From Janthinobacterium lividum (GTDB lineage: Bacteria > Pseudomonadota > Gammaproteobacteria > Burkholderiales > Burkholderiaceae_D), in contig NZ_CP139976.1 of assembly GCF_034424625.1 (NCBI RefSeq), positions 1,922,001 to 1,986,000 on the forward strand: DNA of 64,000 bases, in the 5' to 3' direction. Every line of letters starts with the position of its first letter. Position 1 is the stretch's first letter. Of the stretch, positions 6,168 to 64,000 are shown in pieces. Below the pieces are notes generated by a model that was given only the letters and a program-made list of their open reading frames with translations, made no database searches and was not told the DNA's origin. Made by a program: the position numbers and the translations under genes.

Positions 6168-7359
6168 ATTGCATCGCCGCTGCTGCTGCCGCCTCCGCAT
6201 GCATGGGCAGCGAGATGTCGATTCGCGTGCCACCCAATTCGCTATCGGCGCCGATATGGATGCTGCCGTTCAAGCCCCACACCCGTTCGCGCATGCCCAG
6301 CAAGCCCAGGGCCGTGGCTTTTTCCAGGTCGTGTTCGGCAATGCCGCGGCCGTCATCCTGGATGGTGATGGCGAGCGAGGAATCGATGCGGTGCAGAGCG
6401 ATGGTGATGTGGCTGGCCTCGGCATGGCGCGCGATATTCGTCAGCGCTTCCTGCACGATGCGATAGATGGCCGTGCTGCGCGCATCGTCGAGCACGAGGT
6501 CGGCTTCGTCGGCCAGCAAGTCGAAATGGATGGCGCGGCGCAGCAGGAAGTCGTGCCGCAGTTTTTGTAGCGCAAAATATAAGCCCCCTTCATCGAGCGC
6601 GCGCGGACGCAGGTTGCTGGCGATGCGCCGCAGCGAGGTGATGGCCGTCACCAGCAAGCCGTCCATGCTGTGCAGCAGTGCTTGCAAGGATGCGGTGGTA
6701 TCCGTGTGCTGGCGCACCAGGGTCAGGTCGACGCGCAAGGTGGCCAGCAGCTGCCCCAGGTCATCATGCAGTTCGCGTGCGATATGCTTGCGCTCCTCTT
6801 CGCGGATGGATTGCAGCGCGCTCGACAATTCGCGCAGTTGCGAAAAGGAGCGGGCCAGCTGTTCATGCATTTGCTGGCGCGCACTGATATCGCGCACGAT
6901 GATGGTAAACACGCTATGGCCGTCTTCCTGCATGGCCGAGAGCGAACCTTCGAGGGGAAACATGGCGCCATCGCTGCGCCGGCCCGTCAAGGTGTAATCG
7001 GTGGCGCGCCGGCCCGTCAGGCGCAGCTCCTGGCTGATGTCGCCAAACGGCGGATCGCCATCGTGCTTGCCCAGGCCGTCAAGGGTACGCAAGTCGCGCA
7101 GGATGTAGTGGCCCAGGCGCATGCCGCGCATGCCGCCTGGTGTGTCATCGAACAACCTGGCTGCCGCCGCGTTCGCATGCAGGATGATTTGCCCGCTGTC
7201 GATGCTGATGATGGCGTCGCTGGCGCTATCGATGATGGCCTGGCCACGCGCCTGCCGTTGCCGGAGGGCTTTCAGGGGAGGAAACAAGCACAGCAAAAGC
7301 GCTGCCGCCATGCCCAGTGGCAGGATGCGCAGCAGTGTGGAACTGCCTCGGTCAGGCAT
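6166..7359 (-). CDS. PAS-domain sensor histidine kinase, NarX/UhpB (HisKA_3) type
   Basis: A 397-residue kinase with one hydrophobic segment (about residues 12-31), a PAS domain (about 35-155), a HisKA_3 dimerisation domain with the phospho-acceptor His at 198 (IARELHDDLGQ) and a C-terminal ATPase domain (IVQEALTNIARH; DDGRGIAEHD; LGLLGMRERV). Such kinases usually pair with NarL-type regulators, but none is adjacent: the next gene on this strand encodes a LytTR regulator that has its own kinase. The cognate regulator is therefore probably elsewhere. The sensed signal is unknown. Confidence 0.88.
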   Translation of the reverse strand: MPDRGSSTLLRILPLGMAAALLLCLFPPLKALRQRQARGQAIIDSASDAIISIDSGQIILHANAAAARLFDDTPGGMRGMRLGHYILRDLRTLDGLGKHDGDPPFGDISQELRLTGRRATDYTLTGRRSDGAMFPLEGSLSAMQEDGHSVFTIIVRDISARQQMHEQLARSFSQLRELSSALQSIREEERKHIARELHDDLGQLLATLRVDLTLVRQHTDTTASLQALLHSMDGLLVTAITSLRRIASNLRPRALDEGGLYFALQKLRHDFLLRRAIHFDLLADEADLVLDDARSTAIYRIVQEALTNIARHAEASHITIALHRIDSSLAITIQDDGRGIAEHDLEKATALGLLGMRERVWGLNGSIHIGADSELGGTRIDISLPMHAEAAAAAAMQ

Positions 7360-7515
7360 GGGGTTCTCCTTGCGAACGTGAACGAAGGCAAGACAGGAAT
7401 GGCAGACAGGACTTTAGCCTATGCCTGTTGGCACGGCGCGGCTTGATGTGGCGCAGGAAGGGGAAAGAAGAGAGTGATGCGCCGCGCCGGCCTGGGCCGG
7501 GCGGCGGCGAGAGAC

Positions 7516-8274
7516 TTACATTTGCTTGAACAGGTGCAGGAAGCTGCGGCTCACTTCGAGCTTGTCGGACTTGCCTTTGATGAGCACCAGGTGGCGGCCG
7601 CGGATGTCGCGCGTCACGCCTTCGATGGCATTCACATTGACCAGTGTGGCGCGGTGGATTTGCCAGAACAGCGAAGGATCGAGCTCTTCGGCCAGGTCGC
7701 GCACGGGCTTGCGGATCAGCGCCTCATACTTGGCTGTCTGCACGCAGGTGTATTTCTCGTCAGAACGGAAGAACAGAATCTCTTCCACGGGGATCATGCG
7801 CAAGTCCTGGCCGATACTGGCCTGTATCCATTGCAGATACGTGGGCTTGGCCGTGATTTTTTCCGCCAGTTGCGACAGCATGGCCGTGACGCTGCTGTTG
7901 ACGTCCAGGGCCGGCTTGTTCAAGTGGGTTTTCAGGCGCTCCACCGTGACCAGCAAGCGCTCATGCTCGGGCGGCTTGAGCACGTAGTCGACGGCGCCCC
8001 GCTCGAAGGCTTCGACGGCGTGGGTATCATAGGCCGTGACGAAGACGATATGCGTCTTGCCGCCAATCACTTGCGCTGCTTCCATGCCTGTCTTGCCCGG
8101 CATGCGGATATCGAGGAAGGCAAAGTCCGGCTTGAGTTGCTCCACCAGTTCGATCGCTTCGTCGCCATTCTTGGCTTCGCCGATGATTTCCAGTTCAGGC
8201 CAGGCTTGGCCCAGGCGCAGGCGCAGCTGGTCGCGCATCAGTCTTTCGTCGTCGGCAATAATAGCGGTAGGCAT
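7516..8274 (-). CDS. LytR/AlgR-family response regulator (LytTR DNA-binding domain)
   Basis: A 252-residue regulator with a receiver domain (about 1-120; acidic DDE near the start, phospho-acceptor in FAFLDIRMPGKTG, conserved lysine in VLKPPEHERLL) and a C-terminal LytTR domain (about 145-250: ILFFRSDEKYTCVQT; LFWQIHRATLVNV). The open frame extends three codons upstream to a TTG at 8283, but the ATG at 8274 is preferred. It lies 68 bases after the LytS-like kinase gene, on the same strand, so the two form a two-component pair. Confidence 0.92.
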   Translation of the reverse strand: MPTAIIADDERLMRDQLRLRLGQAWPELEIIGEAKNGDEAIELVEQLKPDFAFLDIRMPGKTGMEAAQVIGGKTHIVFVTAYDTHAVEAFERGAVDYVLKPPEHERLLVTVERLKTHLNKPALDVNSSVTAMLSQLAEKITAKPTYLQWIQASIGQDLRMIPVEEILFFRSDEKYTCVQTAKYEALIRKPVRDLAEELDPSLFWQIHRATLVNVNAIEGVTRDIRGRHLVLIKGKSDKLEVSRSFLHLFKQM

Positions 8275-8342
8275 AGGTCTCAAGTGTGAACAGGCGAAGA
8301 TTGATTATTCAATGATTTAGCGTTTTTATCAACTACTCTGTC

Positions 8343-57120: not shown

Positions 57121-57208
57121 CTTAAAAATGTTCAGGGCAAGGCGCATTGCCGAAGACAGTACGATTAGTACGGCAAGGCAATGCAACGCCGCCATGGACT
57201 TTTTTAAG
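57121..57208. repeat. 88-base stem-loop repeat element, long form
   Basis: Terminal inverted repeats CTTAAAAA and TTTTTAAG bound the element; its centre contains a second hairpin built on TTGCCG...GTAC-GATTA-GTACGGCAA. The outer parts match the short copy at 20088-20134. It sits between the small membrane-protein gene and the end of the TerA-like gene. Confidence 0.7.
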
Positions 57209-57215
57209 TGTTCCC

Positions 57216-58460
57216 TCAGTCTTTGCGGCCGGCTTTCCAGTTCAGGCCAAAGCTGTAGCGCTCGTCCATGGCCTGGTGCGCCGTGATTTTACCTTGGCCG
57301 CCGAAGTATTCCACCAACTTTGTCACCTGCAGGTTGCCGCCGTGGTTTTCCAGCATGGCGATGGCGCACATGGCGTGCTGGCTGTCGCTGTCGAGGCGCA
57401 CTTCCACCGTCGGCTGGCCGGGAATCTCGATCGTCACGACGCCATCGGTGGCGGCCCAGTTCGGCACGCCTTCGTAGATGAAGGCGTACACGAGCACGCG
57501 CTTGATCTGGTCGAAATGGGTGCCGTTGATGAAGATGTTTTCGCCGCTGCTGATGCTGCCCGTGCGGTCGTCGCCTTCCAGGTGGATGTACGGCGGACGG
57601 TCGTAGGCGCCCCAGCTGTTGCCCAGCGCCTGCACGGCGCTTTTGCTGCCATTGCTCATTTCGAACAGGCAGCCGATGTCGAGGTCGATGCCGCCCGCAC
57701 GGCCGGCCGGTTTGTTGAACAGCTTGCCGAGGAAGCCCGTGTCCAGCTTCGACGCGGGAGCCTGGCCTTGCGACGCGCTCTGGTTCCAGTTCAGGTTGAC
57801 CCGGATGCGGCCATAGCCGCCGCTGTCGCGCTTGTCGAGCGAGATCTTGTCGCCGCGTTTTTCCAGGCGGATTTTCGACAGCGAGATTTTATTCGCTGGC
57901 GGCGGGGCCGCCGGCGTGGGCACGGAAGCCGGCGCTGGCGCCGGGGAGGATGCCCCCGCTTCGCTGCCGCCAAAGTGCTTCAGCAGGGCCGCCAGGCCGC
58001 CCGCGAAACCCTGGCCCACGGCGCCGAAGCGCCAGCTGCCGTCGCGGCGATACAGTTCGCCGATGATGACGGCTTTTTCATCCTGGAAGTCATTGCCCGT
58101 GAAGGCAAACGTGGCCGCCTGGCCCAGCGCCATGCTGGAATTGCCCAGCGCGCGCATGCTGCCCTGTTCCGTCGCCGCCGTGAACACCAGCTTGTCGATC
58201 GAGGCGGGCAGGCGGGAAAGGTCGACCTGGAAGGTGGAGCGGGGGCCGTTCAAGTCTACCGTGATGGCGTTGTCCGGCGCGCTTTTCTGGTTGAAGAACA
58301 CCATGTAGCGGTCGTCCGACAGCTTGCCGGCCGCATCGACGCCGAAGCAGCTGACGTCCACTTCCATCGAGCCCGAAACGATATCGAGCGTGACGGCAAA
58401 CGGGCCATTCAAGCCCAGGTCAGCCAGTTTGCCTTTTTGTCCGCGTGTGAAATTGGTCAT
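57216..58460 (-). CDS. TerD-domain tellurium resistance/stress protein (TerA-like)
   Basis: A 414-residue protein with two parts. Residues 1 to about 155 form a TerD-type domain (GQKGKLADLGLNGPFAVTLDI; TFAFTGNDFQDEKAVIIGELYRRDGSWRFGAVGQGF). An Ala/Pro linker follows (about 165-190), then a short KISLSKIRLEKRGDKISLDK motif and a second domain (about 215-414; IDLDIGCLFEMSNGSKSAVQALG; RVLVYAFIYEGVPNW). This matches TerA of ter clusters. TerD domains bind calcium and are linked to phage, colicin and tellurite resistance. It ends an operon with overlapping genes. Confidence 0.85.
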   Translation of the reverse strand: MTNFTRGQKGKLADLGLNGPFAVTLDIVSGSMEVDVSCFGVDAAGKLSDDRYMVFFNQKSAPDNAITVDLNGPRSTFQVDLSRLPASIDKLVFTAATEQGSMRALGNSSMALGQAATFAFTGNDFQDEKAVIIGELYRRDGSWRFGAVGQGFAGGLAALLKHFGGSEAGASSPAPAPASVPTPAAPPPANKISLSKIRLEKRGDKISLDKRDSGGYGRIRVNLNWNQSASQGQAPASKLDTGFLGKLFNKPAGRAGGIDLDIGCLFEMSNGSKSAVQALGNSWGAYDRPPYIHLEGDDRTGSISSGENIFINGTHFDQIKRVLVYAFIYEGVPNWAATDGVVTIEIPGQPTVEVRLDSDSQHAMCAIAMLENHGGNLQVTKLVEYFGGQGKITAHQAMDERYSFGLNWKAGRKD

Positions 58461-59452
58461 GGTCGTGCAGTCCCTTCGTCGCTGGAGAGTTGAGTATTCA
58501 AGGAGTGGTGCAAATGGGGGGCGGGCGCCGCGGCGCCATCGGCCGCATGGCGGATGCCGAACAGGCGCGCCTGCTCGATGATGCGCAGCGCCCAGCTGCT
58601 GTGCGTGGCCACTTCGCACATCGATTCCTGCATGCGGAACACGGCCGGGCTGTCCGGGTCGATGATGCGCAGCGCCAGTTCGATGTCCGACTGCGCCACC
58701 TGGTAGTGGCGTTCGATCTGCGGCACCTGGTCCGGGTGGATGGCCGTCTTGGCGATCATGCCGTGCGCCATGTCCTGCGCCACTTCGGCATCGAGCCAGC
58801 TGCCCTGCGACAGGTGCTCGAAGACGGGCGCCGTCAGCTGGAAGCCGTGCGGCTTGAAGATGGTGACCAGGCGGCCGATGACCTGGCCCAGCGGCGTCTG
58901 GTAGATGGTGCCGCTGGTAGGGCGGCGCAATCCCAGCAGGGCCAGCAGATCGTTGCCGCCGATGCGCAGCGCCAGGATGCGGCGCCGCACTTCCGGCGCC
59001 GACAGGATGATGCGGAACTGCTTCATTTCCTCGTCGTCGAACACTTCCGCCGTTTCCAGGGTCGGCATCAGCAGATGGTGCGTGTGGCGCACCAGCTCGA
59101 AATACGCGGCAAAGTTGTGGCGCGTGGATTTCGGCAGCACGAAGCCGCTCAATTTGTCGGCGCCGGGCATGGCCAGCACGCGCGCCAGCACGTCGAGATT
59201 GCGCACGCGCACGAAGCGCAAGGTATCCGATTCGTCGCACATGTTTTGCAGCGCCAGCGACAGGTTGAACAGCGCGTAACTGAGGTCGCGTTCCGCGATG
59301 GCGTCTTCGGTGCAAAGTATGACCGAACGCAAATGGCTGAATTTGTCGCCATTGGCGATCGCCAGCAAGTCCTTGTGCGTGGTCGGCACATACATGGAGG
59401 CGCCCAGCGCCGCTTTATGCTCGCTTTGCGGGTGTAGGGAGTTGTTATCCAT
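58457..59452 (-). CDS. HpcH/HpaI-type C-C bond lyase of ter clusters
   Basis: A 331-residue protein of the TIM-barrel C-C bond lyase family related to citrate lyase beta subunits, a regular member of ter gene neighbourhoods. Features: RSVILCTEDAIAERDL (barrel start), VRVRNLDVLARVL, LDAEVAQDMAHGMIAKTAIHPDQVPQIE (the end-of-barrel HP motif of this superfamily). The start overlaps the StiP gene by eight bases and the stop overlaps the TerA-like gene by four. Substrate unknown. Confidence 0.82.
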   Translation of the reverse strand: MDNNSLHPQSEHKAALGASMYVPTTHKDLLAIANGDKFSHLRSVILCTEDAIAERDLSYALFNLSLALQNMCDESDTLRFVRVRNLDVLARVLAMPGADKLSGFVLPKSTRHNFAAYFELVRHTHHLLMPTLETAEVFDDEEMKQFRIILSAPEVRRRILALRIGGNDLLALLGLRRPTSGTIYQTPLGQVIGRLVTIFKPHGFQLTAPVFEHLSQGSWLDAEVAQDMAHGMIAKTAIHPDQVPQIERHYQVAQSDIELALRIIDPDSPAVFRMQESMCEVATHSSWALRIIEQARLFGIRHAADGAAAPAPHLHHSLNTQLSSDEGTARP

Positions 59453-60551
59453 CGACTGCGCTCCTGATAAGGGCGACCGCCTGGTAAGGCAGCGCCGGTT
59501 CTACTGTGACGGGTATGGCTTTTTCCTGCGCCAGAAGCAGCAAATGTGCCACGTCCGGCGCATTCGTGTCGCGCACGATCAGGCGCTCGGGCACGCGGCG
59601 CAGCAGCACGCGCGTCGCTTCGCCGATGCCTGGCTTGATCAGGTTGATGTCGCTGATGCCGTATTCCTGCTGCGCCGCAGCCATATAGGCTTGCGAGCGG
59701 GCCGCCATGGCTGGCGCATCGCTCGCTTCGGCCAGCGGGATGCCGCTGCTGGCGGCAATCGCCATGGCGTCTGCCACCAGGCCGTCGGCGAAATCGCGCG
59801 ACTGGTCATGCGCTTCGAACTGCGCGTAGTACACGCAGCCATGGAAGTCGTCCGGACCGATGGCATCATTCAACACGGAGCGGCTGACCAGGCCCGAGAC
59901 CGTGGCATTCAGAATGCTTGACGGGATCAGGTAGTCGCTGGCCGATGCGGCGCAGGCGGCCGTGCCTGCCAGGTCGGACAGCACGAACAGGCCGCCGTCG
60001 ATGGCCGTGCCATGCGCCGCGTTGAAATCGTTGACGGTCTGGCGCAGTTCGCGCGAAATCACGCCCTTGCCCGTCCAGCCATCGACGAAGACGAGGGATT
60101 CGGCCGCATGGCCGTGCGCCAGGATGTGCTGCAGGGCATTGGCGTCGATGCCGCGGTCGCGGATGATGGAGACGGAATAGTGGCTGCATTCGCGCTGGAA
60201 CACCTGGCGCAGCAAGTGGCCCAGGATGACGCCCACGGGCGTGCCGGCGCGCGCCAGCGAGACCAGCGTGATGGGGCCCGTGCGCCGCGCCGCGATCAGG
60301 GCGGCCAGGCGCAGGCAGTCGCGCGCCATCTGCAGGCGGTTGGCCGCGAACGCGCTCCGGAACAGGGCCAGGTAGGCGGGCGAGGGCAGGGATTCGGGCG
60401 ACAGCATTTCGCTGTAGTGGCGCTGGCCAGACTGGATCAAGCGCTCTTTTTCGGCCAGGTCGAGGATGGGTTCGAGCGCCATCGGCGTGAGCAGGAACTC
60501 CACGTCTTCCTGGCGGTAGCTGCCGCTGAAATGCTGCGTGCCGTCGGTCAT
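59445..60551 (-). CDS. StiP-family protein: phosphoribosyltransferase-like plus PELOTA domain
   Basis: A 368-residue protein of the family called cysteine protease StiP in databases. A phosphoribosyltransferase-like core carries a PRPP-loop-like LVFVDGWTGKGVISRE. The C-terminal 60 residues (VLLRRVPERLIVRD; DVAHLLLLAQEKAIPVTV) fit the PELOTA RNA-binding domain of these proteins. The ATG at 60551 overlaps the HAD gene stop by four bases. Both enzymatic labels come from family knowledge; activity is unproven here. Confidence 0.8.
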   Translation of the reverse strand: MTDGTQHFSGSYRQEDVEFLLTPMALEPILDLAEKERLIQSGQRHYSEMLSPESLPSPAYLALFRSAFAANRLQMARDCLRLAALIAARRTGPITLVSLARAGTPVGVILGHLLRQVFQRECSHYSVSIIRDRGIDANALQHILAHGHAAESLVFVDGWTGKGVISRELRQTVNDFNAAHGTAIDGGLFVLSDLAGTAACAASASDYLIPSSILNATVSGLVSRSVLNDAIGPDDFHGCVYYAQFEAHDQSRDFADGLVADAMAIAASSGIPLAEASDAPAMAARSQAYMAAAQQEYGISDINLIKPGIGEATRVLLRRVPERLIVRDTNAPDVAHLLLLAQEKAIPVTVEPALPYQAVALIRSAVDG

Positions 60552-61300
60552 AGCGCCGCCACCGTGAGTGCCGCCAGCTGGGTGCCGTTGGGGATGATGG
60601 CGTAGTCGCAGGCGGCCATGAAGCGGGCGTCCGAACGGCTGTCGCCCATGCCGAAGCTGACGATGGGGCCATGTTCGGCTTCCAGCTCCGCGCGCAGGTA
60701 AGCGACGGCGCGTGCCTTGTTCAGGGTTTTCGGCAGCACGGCCAGGTTGTTGCCGTTGCGGTGGATGAAGTAGTCGCTGCCTTCGGTGGCGATCCACTGC
60801 TGCAGCACCTGCTCTTCGATATCGGCCAGGCGTTCGCCGCGCGCTTCGTGATCCTTGACGACGATGTAGAACGGCGTGTTGTAGTCCTCGATCAGGCGCG
60901 CGCGCGAAGGCATGCCCGTCTTGGCCTGGAAATCGTCGATGATGCGCATGGCTTCCCGCAGGCCGGGCAAGGCCGTCTGCATGTCGTCCTGCATCAGGGC
61001 CAGCCAGCCCGCGTCGAGCGCGCCGCCCGGCTGCAGCACGATGCCGCCGTAATCGAGCACGCTGTAGCTGGTAAACGGCAGGTCGACCCTGCGGAAGGCG
61101 TCGCCATTTCTCGCCGTGGCGGGAATCAGGGTCATGCCGCTGTGCGCGAATTCAAAGAAGGCGCGCTGGCGCGCCGTCGTAAACGAGCAGGCGTCGCCAT
61201 TTTTCAGATAGGCGGCCGGCTGCAGGTCGGTCTCGCCCGGGCATTTTTTCGGGGTCTGGAACAGTGTGTCGTCCAGATCAACAAACAGGAATTTCTTCAA
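60548..61300 (-). CDS. HAD-family hydrolase of ter clusters
   Basis: A protein of about 250 residues with HAD motif I (FVDLDDTLF), motif II (LIPATARN), motif III lysine (PKTLNKARAV) and motif IV (GMGDSRSDARFM). Probably a phosphatase acting on the pathway product. Start is uncertain: the TTG at 61300 puts DLDDT near the N-terminus as in relatives and has GAGACC before it, while the ATG at 61336 adds 12 residues without a ribosome site. Either start overlaps the preceding gene. Confidence 0.8.
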   Translation of the reverse strand: MKKFLFVDLDDTLFQTPKKCPGETDLQPAAYLKNGDACSFTTARQRAFFEFAHSGMTLIPATARNGDAFRRVDLPFTSYSVLDYGGIVLQPGGALDAGWLALMQDDMQTALPGLREAMRIIDDFQAKTGMPSRARLIEDYNTPFYIVVKDHEARGERLADIEEQVLQQWIATEGSDYFIHRNGNNLAVLPKTLNKARAVAYLRAELEAEHGPIVSFGMGDSRSDARFMAACDYAIIPNGTQLAALTVAAL

Positions 61301-62435
61301 TTTTGGTCTCTGACTGAAAGTGGAACAGGCGGCCATTCAACTGGCCGGCGAGTTGCATGAGGGCCGGGCTGGCCGGGGTTTCATGGCAGATGAAAACGTG
61401 CTGGTACTGGCCAGGTGCCACGTTGTACAGGTAATTGGCGATGCCTTCGCCGTAGTTGTCGTCGCAGTTGACGATGTGGCCGACGGAGCCCCATGACAGG
61501 ATGGGCGAGCGCGTGGTCGATTGCACCACCACGTTCTTGCCCAGCGCTTCCAGCTCGCGCGCCAGCAGGAACGACGGGTGCATGAATTCGCCCGTGCCCA
61601 GCACCAGCACGGAGTCGCCGGCGCCGATTTCCTGCGCCAGCTGCACCGCCAGGCCTTGCGGCGGCGCCAGGGCGCGTCCCACGCCGATGCGGCCAAACGC
61701 GGGGCTGGCGCCCCGTTCCGCATTCGCCTCGAAGCGCTGCGCGCTGGCTGCTACCGGAGCAGGCGCATCGCCTGCCTGGAAGGCGTACTGGCCGGAGAGC
61801 GCCGCGCCGATGCTGGTGGGCAGGCCGAAACGCTCGCTCAAGCCCGCGTTGGCGGCCTGGCCCATGAAATTGGTGATCACGCCCAGGTGCAGCTTTTCCA
61901 GCTGCGGATAGCGCGCGCGGCACACTTGCACCAGGTTGGCGAAGGTGTTGCCGGTCGACGCTTCATCGTCGATCAGCACCAGGCTGCGGGCCGTGGAAAA
62001 CAGCGCGCTGGCGGCGTCCGATAAATGCAGGAACTGGCGCGGCGCGTGGCTGTGCGACTCCTCGAATTCGAAGAAGGGCACCGTGCCCACGCGGTAGCGC
62101 GAGCTGTGCAAAAACAGGGCTTTCCCATGCGGGTTGGCGCGCAGCCATGCCTCGAACACGCCCTGGCCCAGGCCGACGGCCGTTTCCGCCATGGCGATGA
62201 AGACCACGGGACCGGGCAGGCTGGGGGGGATCTGCGCGGCCAGGTCGTCGTGGATGGCTTGCATGGCGCGCGGCGTGACGGGCCAGTGCTTGCCCAGCAC
62301 CTTGGACAAAAACAGGAAGCCCCGCTTGGCGTTGGCGCGCGCGGCAAAGCCGATCAGCCAGTCCAGCGGAAAGCGCGCCTCGTCCACTTTCAAGGTCAGC
62401 TCGCCCGTGGGCATCTGCTGCTTGACGATGTTCAT
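61278..62435 (-). CDS. Phosphoribosyltransferase with TRSP domain
   Basis: A 385-residue protein: N-terminal phosphoribosyltransferase with the PRPP loop LVLIDDEASTGNTFANLV, then a C-terminal TRSP domain (SVLVLGTGEFMHPSFLLARE; QSTTRSPILSWGSVGHIVNC). These fused enzymes occur in ter-linked biosynthetic clusters and are thought to attach or remove a ribose-phosphate unit. Four-base overlap with the ATP-grasp gene before it and a 23-base overlap with the HAD gene after it. Confidence 0.83.
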   Translation of the reverse strand: MNIVKQQMPTGELTLKVDEARFPLDWLIGFAARANAKRGFLFLSKVLGKHWPVTPRAMQAIHDDLAAQIPPSLPGPVVFIAMAETAVGLGQGVFEAWLRANPHGKALFLHSSRYRVGTVPFFEFEESHSHAPRQFLHLSDAASALFSTARSLVLIDDEASTGNTFANLVQVCRARYPQLEKLHLGVITNFMGQAANAGLSERFGLPTSIGAALSGQYAFQAGDAPAPVAASAQRFEANAERGASPAFGRIGVGRALAPPQGLAVQLAQEIGAGDSVLVLGTGEFMHPSFLLARELEALGKNVVVQSTTRSPILSWGSVGHIVNCDDNYGEGIANYLYNVAPGQYQHVFICHETPASPALMQLAGQLNGRLFHFQSETKIEEIPVC

Positions 62436-63469
62436 GGCAGCTCCACGGCGTAGGCGGCTTCGCCCACGCGCATGCCTTCGTGGATGGCGGGCACGGTGAG
62501 CTTGTCAAAGCCCTGGTCGAAACCGGCCAGCGCCAGGTAGGGCAGGTTCGGGCCGGCAGCGCACGCCATGCCGATGCCGCCCGACATGCGCGGGTTGATT
62601 TCCAGCAGCGCCAGGCCATTCGCGCCTTCGCGGAACTGGATGTTGAAGACGCCATTCAGGCGGTAGTCGCGCGCCAGTTTGTCGCAGGCTGCCAGCAAGT
62701 CGTCGCGCAGTTCGATCAGCTGGCCGCTGCCGCCCCCGTGCAGCTTCTTGCGCGGCACGGCGCAAACGAGCTTGCCCTGGTCGGCGACGCAGTCGGCGCT
62801 GTATTCGTGGCCGTCGAGGTATTCCATCAGCAGCAGGGTCTTGAACGATGCCATCTGCGCCAGGCCGCTGCGCAGCTCTTGCGCATTGATCTGGTAGGCG
62901 GCGCCGGCCAGCAGCAGCTGGGCGCTGGTGCGCTCTTCATCGAGAATGGCAAAGCCCAGGGCATACACGGATTCGGACGGCTTGATGCACAGCTTGCGAT
63001 GCAGCGGACGCAGTTCGGCGTAGGCGGCGTCGTATTCTGCGATCGTGGTGACGGCGCGGTAGTCGGCCGGGCGCGCCATGGACAGATCGAGTCCGTCGCA
63101 GAAGCGCGCCTTGTCGTGCATCAAATTCAGGGTGTCTTCGCTGGCCACGCTGAGCACGCGCGTGCCGATGGCGGCGAAGCGCGCGCTGGCGCTGCCGATC
63201 AGGCCCGCTTCCTTGCCGGGCCAGAAAATCGTGATGCCCCGCTCGCGGCAGAATTCCAGGCACCACTCGACATAATTGAGGCCCGTCAGTCCCGACGGTT
63301 CGACCGCGTATTCGTGGGCCGACAAAAAGGCGGCCGCGTGCGCGTTCGTATTGCTGCACACGATGTGGTAGCGGGGCGCGCCGCTAGTCGCGGCCATGTC
63401 GGCCTCGCGGATCAGGCGCATGGCCGTGCCGACCGAGGAAAATGTTTTGTTGAACCAGACTCTTTGCAT
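62432..63469 (-). CDS. ATP-grasp protein of ter clusters
   Basis: A 345-residue ATP-grasp enzyme resembling carbamoyl-phosphate synthase large-subunit domains: KLCIKPSESVYALGF, FKTLLLMEYLDGHEYSADCV (nucleotide-binding hinge) and ALLEINPRMSGGIGMA (metal and ATP site). Such enzymes form amide or ester bonds using ATP. First gene of the six-gene overlapping unit; the 165 bases upstream up to the AIM24 gene hold a GC-rich inverted repeat but no clear promoter. Confidence 0.83.
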   Translation of the reverse strand: MQRVWFNKTFSSVGTAMRLIREADMAATSGAPRYHIVCSNTNAHAAAFLSAHEYAVEPSGLTGLNYVEWCLEFCRERGITIFWPGKEAGLIGSASARFAAIGTRVLSVASEDTLNLMHDKARFCDGLDLSMARPADYRAVTTIAEYDAAYAELRPLHRKLCIKPSESVYALGFAILDEERTSAQLLLAGAAYQINAQELRSGLAQMASFKTLLLMEYLDGHEYSADCVADQGKLVCAVPRKKLHGGGSGQLIELRDDLLAACDKLARDYRLNGVFNIQFREGANGLALLEINPRMSGGIGMACAAGPNLPYLALAGFDQGFDKLTVPAIHEGMRVGEAAYAVELP

Positions 63470-63634
63470 GTACGGGGACCGGGTAAAGAAAGGGAAAGCC
63501 GCGCGCAGGTGCGCGCGCGGGGAGTCTAACCAGCCAGACTTAACCTGGCCTTAGAATTTTTTTGAACAACAATGTTGAACAACAAACTAGCAGCGCTTTT
63601 GGTACCTGCGCATGGCAGGTATGCTCACGAGAAC

Positions 63635-64000
63635 TTAGCCAGCTTTGCCGGAGGCAGTCCATTTCAGGAAGGCGTCGCGGTTGCGCGAGCAGATGAACAC
63701 CTTGCCCGAGCCGGAAAAGCGCAGCACGATGCCTTCGCCGCTGGTGACGCTATTGACGATATTGCCGAGGAAGCCGCCGATGCCGCCGCCGCTGGCGCCG
63801 CCGCCCGTGGTCACGGAAATCTCGTATTTCAGGCTGTTGTCCCAGCATACGACGTGGGAATTGTCGATCACGACATCCTTGCCCGGCTCGACGTCGAGCT
63901 GGAACATGGAGCCAAAGCCCGACACCACCACCTGGCCCGTGCCGGCCGTCTCCATGACGAAGAAGCCGCCCGACTGGGCGAACAAGGCGTTGCCGATGCT
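63635..64000 (-). CDS. TIGR00266/AIM24 family protein, C-terminal part
   Basis: About 120 C-terminal codons before the window edge; the frame is open to the last base, so the gene continues outside. Residues match the TIGR00266/AIM24 beta-rich family (SGGFFVMETAGTGQVVVSGFGSMFQLDV; GIGGFLGNIVNSVTSGEGIVLRFSG). Members are often found with ter genes and stress proteins. It is on the same strand as the ter-associated unit, 165 bases upstream, and may belong to it. Confidence 0.78.
   Translation of the reverse strand, partial: SIGNALFAQSGGFFVMETAGTGQVVVSGFGSMFQLDVEPGKDVVIDNSHVVCWDNSLKYEISVTTGGGASGGGIGGFLGNIVNSVTSGEGIVLRFSGSGKVFICSRNRDAFLKWTASGKAG

Follow-up and report, generated by a model that had tools for sequence, protein, structure and literature searches.

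What do the enzyme genes found beside bacterial Ter stress genes make, and on what does the phosphatase among them act? These questions are raised by a six-gene unit on the minus strand of a Janthinobacterium lividum chromosome, at positions 57216-63469 of the window, the 64,000-nucleotide stretch analyzed here (contig NZ_CP139976.1; G000:C1:1922001-1986000), from a genome of 6.76 Mb whose nearest named relatives are Janthinobacterium. The locus itself is a module of known type. What is new is that its phosphatase places the family of a solved structure, deposited as a 'trehalose phosphatase', in the Ter pathway. Our results point to a unit that probably supplies a chromosomal Ter stress system with a small ribosylated molecule.

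Composition of the six-gene unit

The six genes run head to tail and overlap one another, with no internal gap. They encode, in order, an ATP-grasp ligase (ATPgrasp_Ter, 62432-63469, 345 aa; PF15632, E = 9.9e-44 with Pfam), a type I phosphoribosyltransferase (PRTase) of the PRTase_2 family with a C-terminal TRSP domain (61278-62435, 385 aa; PF15609, 7.3e-59, and PF12500, 8.1e-20), a HAD-IIB phosphatase (60548-61300; PF08282/PF05116, about 8e-6), the type I PRTase-like protein StiP with a PELOTA RNA-binding domain (59445-60551, 368 aa; PF11202, 4.9e-99, and PF15608, 2e-33), a C-C bond lyase with a CitE/HpcH-like TIM barrel (C-C_Bond_Lyase, 58457-59452, 331 aa; PF15617, E = 1.7e-90), and a TerA-like protein built of a TerD domain at the N-terminus and a diverged, TerD-like second part (57216-58460, 414 aa; PF02342, 6.3e-33). 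Overlaps of 4 bases join the ATP-grasp and PRTase_2 genes (62432-62435), the HAD and StiP genes (60548-60551), and the lyase and TerA-like genes (58457-58460), and one of 8 bases joins StiP to the lyase (59445-59452). The HAD gene probably begins at TTG 61300, a start whose context is conserved in the four relatives examined, rather than at ATG 61336 of the longest open reading frame (ORF; 262 aa), and from TTG 61300 it overlaps the PRTase_2 gene by 23 bases. StiP starts at 60551 rather than at its longest-ORF start, 60797. An earlier note on this DNA, made from the letters alone, had described six overlapping genes of these families closed by a two-part TerA-like gene, and all six are present in that position and order with Pfam matches to each. 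In profile comparison with TerD (hhalign), the N half of the TerA-like protein gave E = 1.7e-39 and the C half a probability of 96.8 (E = 2.1e-10), which bears out its two-part build; compared with each other, the halves gave no match (probability 7.5).

The enzymes retain the residues expected of them. Those of the ATP-grasp, PRTase_2, HAD, and lyase proteins listed here are presumably the catalytic positions of each fold. In the ATP-grasp protein, K163 and E222 were found in 48/48 sequences and E290, N292, and R294 in 47/48; its nearest solved structure is 2pn1 (E = 3.5e-9). The loop of PRTase_2 that binds phosphoribosyl pyrophosphate (PRPP) has D156, D157, G162, and T164 in 68/68, the HAD protein has D20, D22, T74, K207, D232, and D236 in 75/75 (numbered on the 262-aa ORF), and the lyase, which matches RipC at E = 2.3e-9, far below the RipC cut-off, has R82, E133, and D168 in 71/71. 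The AlphaFold2 model of PRTase_2 has a mean confidence (pLDDT) of 94.4, and its best Foldseek matches in the PDB are APRT and XPRT (probability 1.00, E = 4.7e-6); among the best 50 rows, five carry no functional name, and the others are PRTases.

StiP, filed in databases as a cysteine protease, looks like a PRTase in its predicted fold and its conserved residues. Its model has a pLDDT of 94.9, and HGPRT, PyrR, and APRT rows were returned by Foldseek at probabilities of 0.96-1.00, the best being a remote match to HGPRT (E = 4.5e-4). Residues S98, R101, G103, and D157 of its pyrophosphate-loop-like and PRPP-loop regions are invariant; in the latter, D157, W159, T160, K162, and G163 occur in 73/73 sequences, but the second acidic position is occupied by G158 in 71/73. 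Loss of catalytic residues, named beforehand as the outcome to look for against a working unit, was seen in none of the five enzymes.

The HAD phosphatase and the crystallized 'trehalose phosphatase'

In a single-sequence search of the PDB up to E = 1, the HAD protein matched only 6cj0 and 6d3v (with 6d3w), each deposited as 'Trehalose phosphatase' (E = 1.2e-30). Residues 8-246 of the crystallized chain are 99.6% identical to the product of a Pseudomonas aeruginosa plasmid gene (CP109686.1, locus L127), which lies between PRTase_2 and StiP, with the lyase, TerB, TerC, and TerD further along. A 92.9% copy at a second P. aeruginosa plasmid locus (L128) has the same placement. Since the 99.6% match is to a plasmid gene, the neighborhood examined is that of this near-identical gene and not the crystallized gene's own. 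A profile made from the HADs of L008, a stretch of the window's own genome reaching past the window end, and of the relatives' loci, with L127 and L128 left out, matched the HADs of those two at E = 2.8e-69 and 3.5e-70, respectively (values that refer to a set of about 80 sequences). An extrachromosomal P. aeruginosa trehalose-6-phosphate phosphatase with cysteines 85 and 231 is described, with phosphatase assays, in one paper (PMC6838324). Cysteines stand at precisely these two positions in the HAD of L127; the HAD of L128 has a further one, at 239. A 2018 report by Cross and colleagues in FASEB J is said to have treated a chromosomal and an extrachromosomal enzyme, to have solved the chromosomal one, and to have found Mg-dependent activity specific for trehalose-6-phosphate (T6P).

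By sequence, then, the HAD protein is a member of the family of the crystallized 'trehalose phosphatase', and one enzyme of the unit is for that reason not biochemically blank. Its nearest curated families include enzymes that dephosphorylate phosphorylated glycosides, namely the phosphatases for sucrose-phosphate and mannosyl-3-phosphoglycerate, as well as the broad Hydrolase_3/Cof group. No paper linking the 'trehalose phosphatase' structure to the Ter module was found among those listed in searches of an open-access library.

Ter genes beyond the window edge

The earlier note had seen no TerB, TerC, or TerZ gene, which holds within the window, and had proposed extending the contig past base 64000. 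There, terD and terC were found, but TerB does not adjoin the unit. The apparent absence of Ter genes is therefore an edge effect, since the window simply ends there. On the same strand and upstream of the unit lie an AIM24/TIGR00266-like gene (L008:9636-10352), a TerD gene (L008:10459-11088), and a TerC/DUF475 gene (L008:11135-12217). The C-terminal half of the AIM24-like protein is encoded within the window (63635-64000, minus strand; PF01987, E = 1.2e-55; TIGR00266 over cut-off), the gene running on to L008:10352, and 165 bases separate it from the six-gene unit. The TerD domain lies at 1986473-1987033 in contig coordinates, followed by terC/DUF475; the true start of terD is probably the internal MAISLQKG. 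The proposal that the cluster lacks Ter genes was rejected on the strength of terD and terC. Thus TerC and TerD-domain genes adjoin the enzymes on one side (L008:10459-12217), and the TerA-like gene (57216-58460) closes them on the other.

The same genome carries two further TerD loci. One (L010) contains TerC, TerD, an AIM24-like gene (judged by sequence), and TerD, and no biosynthetic enzymes were seen there; the other (L009) contains three TerD-domain genes. Two TerB domains are encoded elsewhere in the genome, none beside the unit, and TelA was not found in it. Families, order, overlaps, expected catalytic residues, and adjoining Ter genes all agree with the complete Ter-associated biosynthetic unit, its product left unnamed, that the earlier note had proposed.

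Conservation and distribution

StiP was found in 38/40 Janthinobacterium genomes, 28/145 genomes of a family sample, and, over the cut-off, 7/249 genomes of a phylum sample. TerC is present in 40/40 Janthinobacterium genomes, and in 35 of the 38 with StiP a copy is placed, as judged by eye, some 5-6 kb from StiP on one contig; the remaining three are assemblies of 360-550 contigs. In one of these genomes, the match to the TerC next to StiP is split into two pieces that overlap (G416:C1:5618357-5619275), which suggests a frameshift.

Relatives with StiP were limited to the best 80 of 588, so the counts that follow are weighted toward close relatives and toward Proteobacteria, and they include many metagenome bins. 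Gene content was counted at the 63 loci with at least 5 kb upstream and at least 1.5 kb downstream, the other 17 being dropped for short flanks. PRTase_2 was present at 57, the HAD gene at 59, the lyase at 57, the ATP-grasp gene at 42, a TerD-domain gene at 49, and TerC at 20. PRTase_2, HAD, StiP, and lyase occurred together at 53/63 loci, 49 of which keep the order on one strand; the order is broken by TerD-domain genes between PRTase_2 and HAD at L068, L069, and L078, and by rearrangement in Clostridium (L126). Records titled Cyanobacteria, Planctomycetota, Myxococcales, and Clostridium are among the loci, several of them metagenome bins.

The ratio of nonsynonymous to synonymous substitution rates (dN/dS) was computed against six chosen loci, one of which (L058) yielded no value. 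For all six genes it was 0.06-0.16 against the Janthinobacterium loci L048, L050, and L052, and 0.21-0.56 against L054 and L057, where in our reading dS is flattened by high G+C. The low ratios within the genus, together with the same gene order far outside it, argue that the unit is not a chance assembly. That it is decayed or silent is scarcely credible given these ratios, the retained catalytic residues, and the near-universal presence of StiP in the genus.

With the window proteins as queries, HAD relatives were found in 2563 and StiP relatives in 2568 of 72,556 plasmid records, counted separately and with near-equal organism counts; the StiP-bearing plasmids are mostly from Klebsiella, Escherichia, Enterobacter, and Salmonella. 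Among phage records, a relative of StiP with 37.7% identity is encoded at 7238-8296 of MT836648.1, an unannotated 15 kb 'Bacteriophage sp.' record from human feces, and the only other phage matches to StiP were two records of jumbo phage ME3. When neighbors were clustered to look for extra pathway genes, two plausible recurrent ones emerged, a TerB-like gene at 19 loci, identified by eye, and a HAD-IB-like gene at 5, which carries that annotation in L127. Most other clusters look, in our judgment, like antisense ORFs.

Proposed pathway

Comparative work by Anantharaman, Iyer, and Aravind (2012) predicted that a Ter-linked biosynthetic module makes a nucleoside-like metabolite, as relayed in PMC8115787 and PMC7824862. 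The composition found here is of that kind, with PRTase_2 (with TRSP), HAD, StiP (with PELOTA), and the C-C lyase in one run and ATPgrasp_Ter nearby. With a probability of roughly 0.72, we consider the unit to be the biosynthetic branch of a Ter stress system borne on the chromosome, which would make a ribosylated molecule sensed by TerD and TerC. In this scheme, the lyase and the ATP-grasp ligase would build or activate a small carboxylate acceptor, to which one or both PRTases would attach 5-phosphoribose from PRPP. The HAD phosphatase would then remove the phosphate to leave a ribosylated nucleoside- or glycoside-like molecule, and the TerD-domain proteins, including the TerA-like one, and the membrane protein TerC would respond to it, altering metal or envelope physiology under stress. 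We infer the order of the steps, the acceptor, and the signaling role. The idea of a signal comes from Anantharaman et al. as restated in PMC7824862; what was computed here is gene identity and order, catalytic-residue conservation, overlaps, purifying selection, the adjoining TerC/TerD, the predicted PRTase folds, and the HAD family.

Several observations weigh against this scheme. The ATP-grasp gene was not found at 21/63 loci and the lyase not at 6/63, so the pathway may differ between hosts, and no TerD-domain gene was seen at 14/63. The structural case for StiP is modest, since its Foldseek matches at E <= 0.001 comprise three PRTases and two pyridoxal-phosphate enzymes of lower probability, with low TM-scores (about 0.25 when scaled to the length of the query and at most 0.54 when scaled to the target), and its profile comparison with PRTase_2 was not significant (probability 0.5%). 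A conserved terminator separates terC-terD from the six-gene unit. Finally, the TerC-TerD-AIM24-like-TerD set without enzymes at L010 indicates that the enzymes are not obligatory for the Ter core.

Alternative explanations

The Ter metabolite may instead be a ribosylated glycoside, that is, ribose joined to a sugar- or polyol-like acceptor, and not a nucleobase nucleoside. This is a tentative suggestion that we hold to be less probable than its opposite, and it is drawn from the HAD protein's neighboring families and the reported T6P activity, not from any product. The T6P activity reported for the P. aeruginosa enzyme would then be a readout of a different true substrate, in which a second ring is attached at the anomeric carbon of a sugar 5- or 6-phosphate, and the solved structure would be an entry point to the product.

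An unlikely alternative is that StiP acts on RNA, its L7Ae-like domain docking the PRTase-like domain on a structured RNA so that the unit makes or installs a modified nucleotide. The C-terminal part of StiP matches L7Ae-type proteins (best E = 6e-4) as well as PF15608, and K306, E311, R314, R318, and R319 are invariant there (73/73). PELOTA folds can, however, serve other roles, and among the partly examined neighbors neither an RNA target nor a gene for an RNA-modifying partner came to light. The presence of the module on plasmids and in a jumbo phage (for the latter see also PMC7824862) is also ill-suited to a housekeeping RNA, though compatible with one.

It is more improbable still that the HAD protein is a true trehalose-6-phosphate phosphatase in a unit devoted to making or salvaging trehalose for protection under stress. 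In favor of this, its only close solved relatives were deposited under that name, and the P. aeruginosa extrachromosomal enzyme was assayed as such (PMC6838324). The distribution of the T6P synthase OtsA points the other way. We searched 54 genomes, namely 34 with StiP over the cut-off from the phylum and family samples and 20 hand-picked from the 80 loci, some of them drafts; two had no HAD gene near StiP and were left out, giving 52. OtsA (PF00982) was over the cut-off in 24/54, all within the 52, so that 28/52 HAD-bearing genomes had none over it, one of these 28 with weak matches below. T6P is therefore unlikely as a general substrate, although the absence of OtsA is compatible with T6P from uptake or another enzyme. 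Canonical OtsB, moreover, is also carried by 19 of the 24 genomes with OtsA. The window's genome has adjacent otsA and otsB genes of its own, and the HAD profile gave no match to this OtsB at E <= 10. In the converse search, with the usual HMMER filters, the P. aeruginosa HADs matched neither the Trehalose_PPase model (PF02358) nor an OtsB model at E <= 10; at that threshold there was no match for four HADs with Pfam and three with NCBIfam, the window's HAD having been compared with NCBIfam at E <= 0.001 only. None of the unit's other genes has a match among the trehalose families, and according to PMC11046441 the OtsA-OtsB route is missing from P. aeruginosa. Taken together, T6P is probably not the natural substrate.

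The Pfam and NCBI names for StiP would make the unit a system of regulatory proteolysis, which is highly improbable. The column of C239, two residues after the invariant H237, is Cys in 69/73 sequences; it is Ser or Ala in the other four, and no other column is more than half cysteine, so the conservation pattern lends the protease name no support. PRTases are what the predicted structure matches, none of the best 50 of 1548 Foldseek rows being a protease, and the PRTase-like residues S98, R101, G103, and D157 are invariant.

Transcription signals and repeats

Between terD and the AIM24-like gene lies a perfect-stem intrinsic terminator (L008:10372-10394), GCCGCCTG, a variable loop, and CAGGCGGC, followed by eight or more T residues. 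It was present in 9/9 Janthinobacterium loci examined (L008, L047-L054), and therefore the whole locus, from terC to the TerA-like gene, is probably not one transcript; the reading of a single operon including terC was set aside on this ground. We infer that terC-terD would form one transcript and the six genes, perhaps with the AIM24-like gene, another. In the gap that separates the ATP-grasp gene from the AIM24-like gene, a G+C hairpin followed by a weak run of T residues (63499-63520, minus strand; L008:9500-9521) is possibly an attenuator. It is present in L008 and L047-L051 and not in L052-L054, and its region holds 18 terminator-like sites against 11.1 expected (standard deviation 3.8). 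A scan of the region for sigma-70 promoters found none against 1.6 expected and is uninformative.

An inverted repeat of the GGCCAGGTTAAGTCTGGCC type lies upstream of the ATP-grasp gene (63530-63552) and recurs in L008, L047, and L049-L051, in altered form in L048; it is a possible regulatory site. Just downstream of the TerA-like gene, a dispersed repeat at 57144-57176 can form a hairpin, and its 26-base core has six copies in the genome with at most three mismatches, against none for the reversed control pattern. The interval from terD to the AIM24-like gene holds further long repeat-like hairpins, whose length varies with the strain (L008:10424-10450, and the corresponding interval in L049-L052).

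Relation to known systems and significance

The unit shares with the module of Anantharaman et al. the same enzyme classes beside TerC/TerD genes, but it is chromosomal, genus-wide, and accompanied by an AIM24-like gene and a DUF475-type TerC, with neither an adjoining TerB nor, in the genome, TelA. The ter locus of Klebsiella plasmid pS245-2 (L131) has ATP-grasp, PRTase_2, HAD, StiP, and lyase genes in the same order; its module, however, is divergent from the ter resistance genes and accompanied by terW, whereas here the unit follows terC-terD and is read from the same strand. In the P. aeruginosa plasmid modules L127 and L128, the HAD gene likewise stands between PRTase_2 and StiP, and TerB, TerC, and TerD lie beyond the lyase, but their HADs are only 35% identical to the window's; after the lyase, L127 has a HAD-IB gene and L128 an unannotated gap, and L127 also carries IS1182 copies. 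In butirosin-type ribosylation, a PRPP transferase acts first and a phosphatase follows. The proposed pathway resembles it in logic, with phosphoribosyl transfer followed by phosphate removal.

A ter locus of K. pneumoniae has been tied to gut fitness (PMC8115787), and no identified product of a Ter module was found among the papers listed in searches of an open-access library. Ter modules of this kind occur on more than two thousand plasmids. In the organism studied here, the Ter locus L010, where no enzymes were seen, is a natural point of comparison for judging their contribution. For the wider family, our results suggest that a protein now classed with trehalose metabolism may carry the wrong assignment, and with a crystallized, assayable enzyme in the pathway, what was only predicted can be tested directly through the phosphatase's real substrate.

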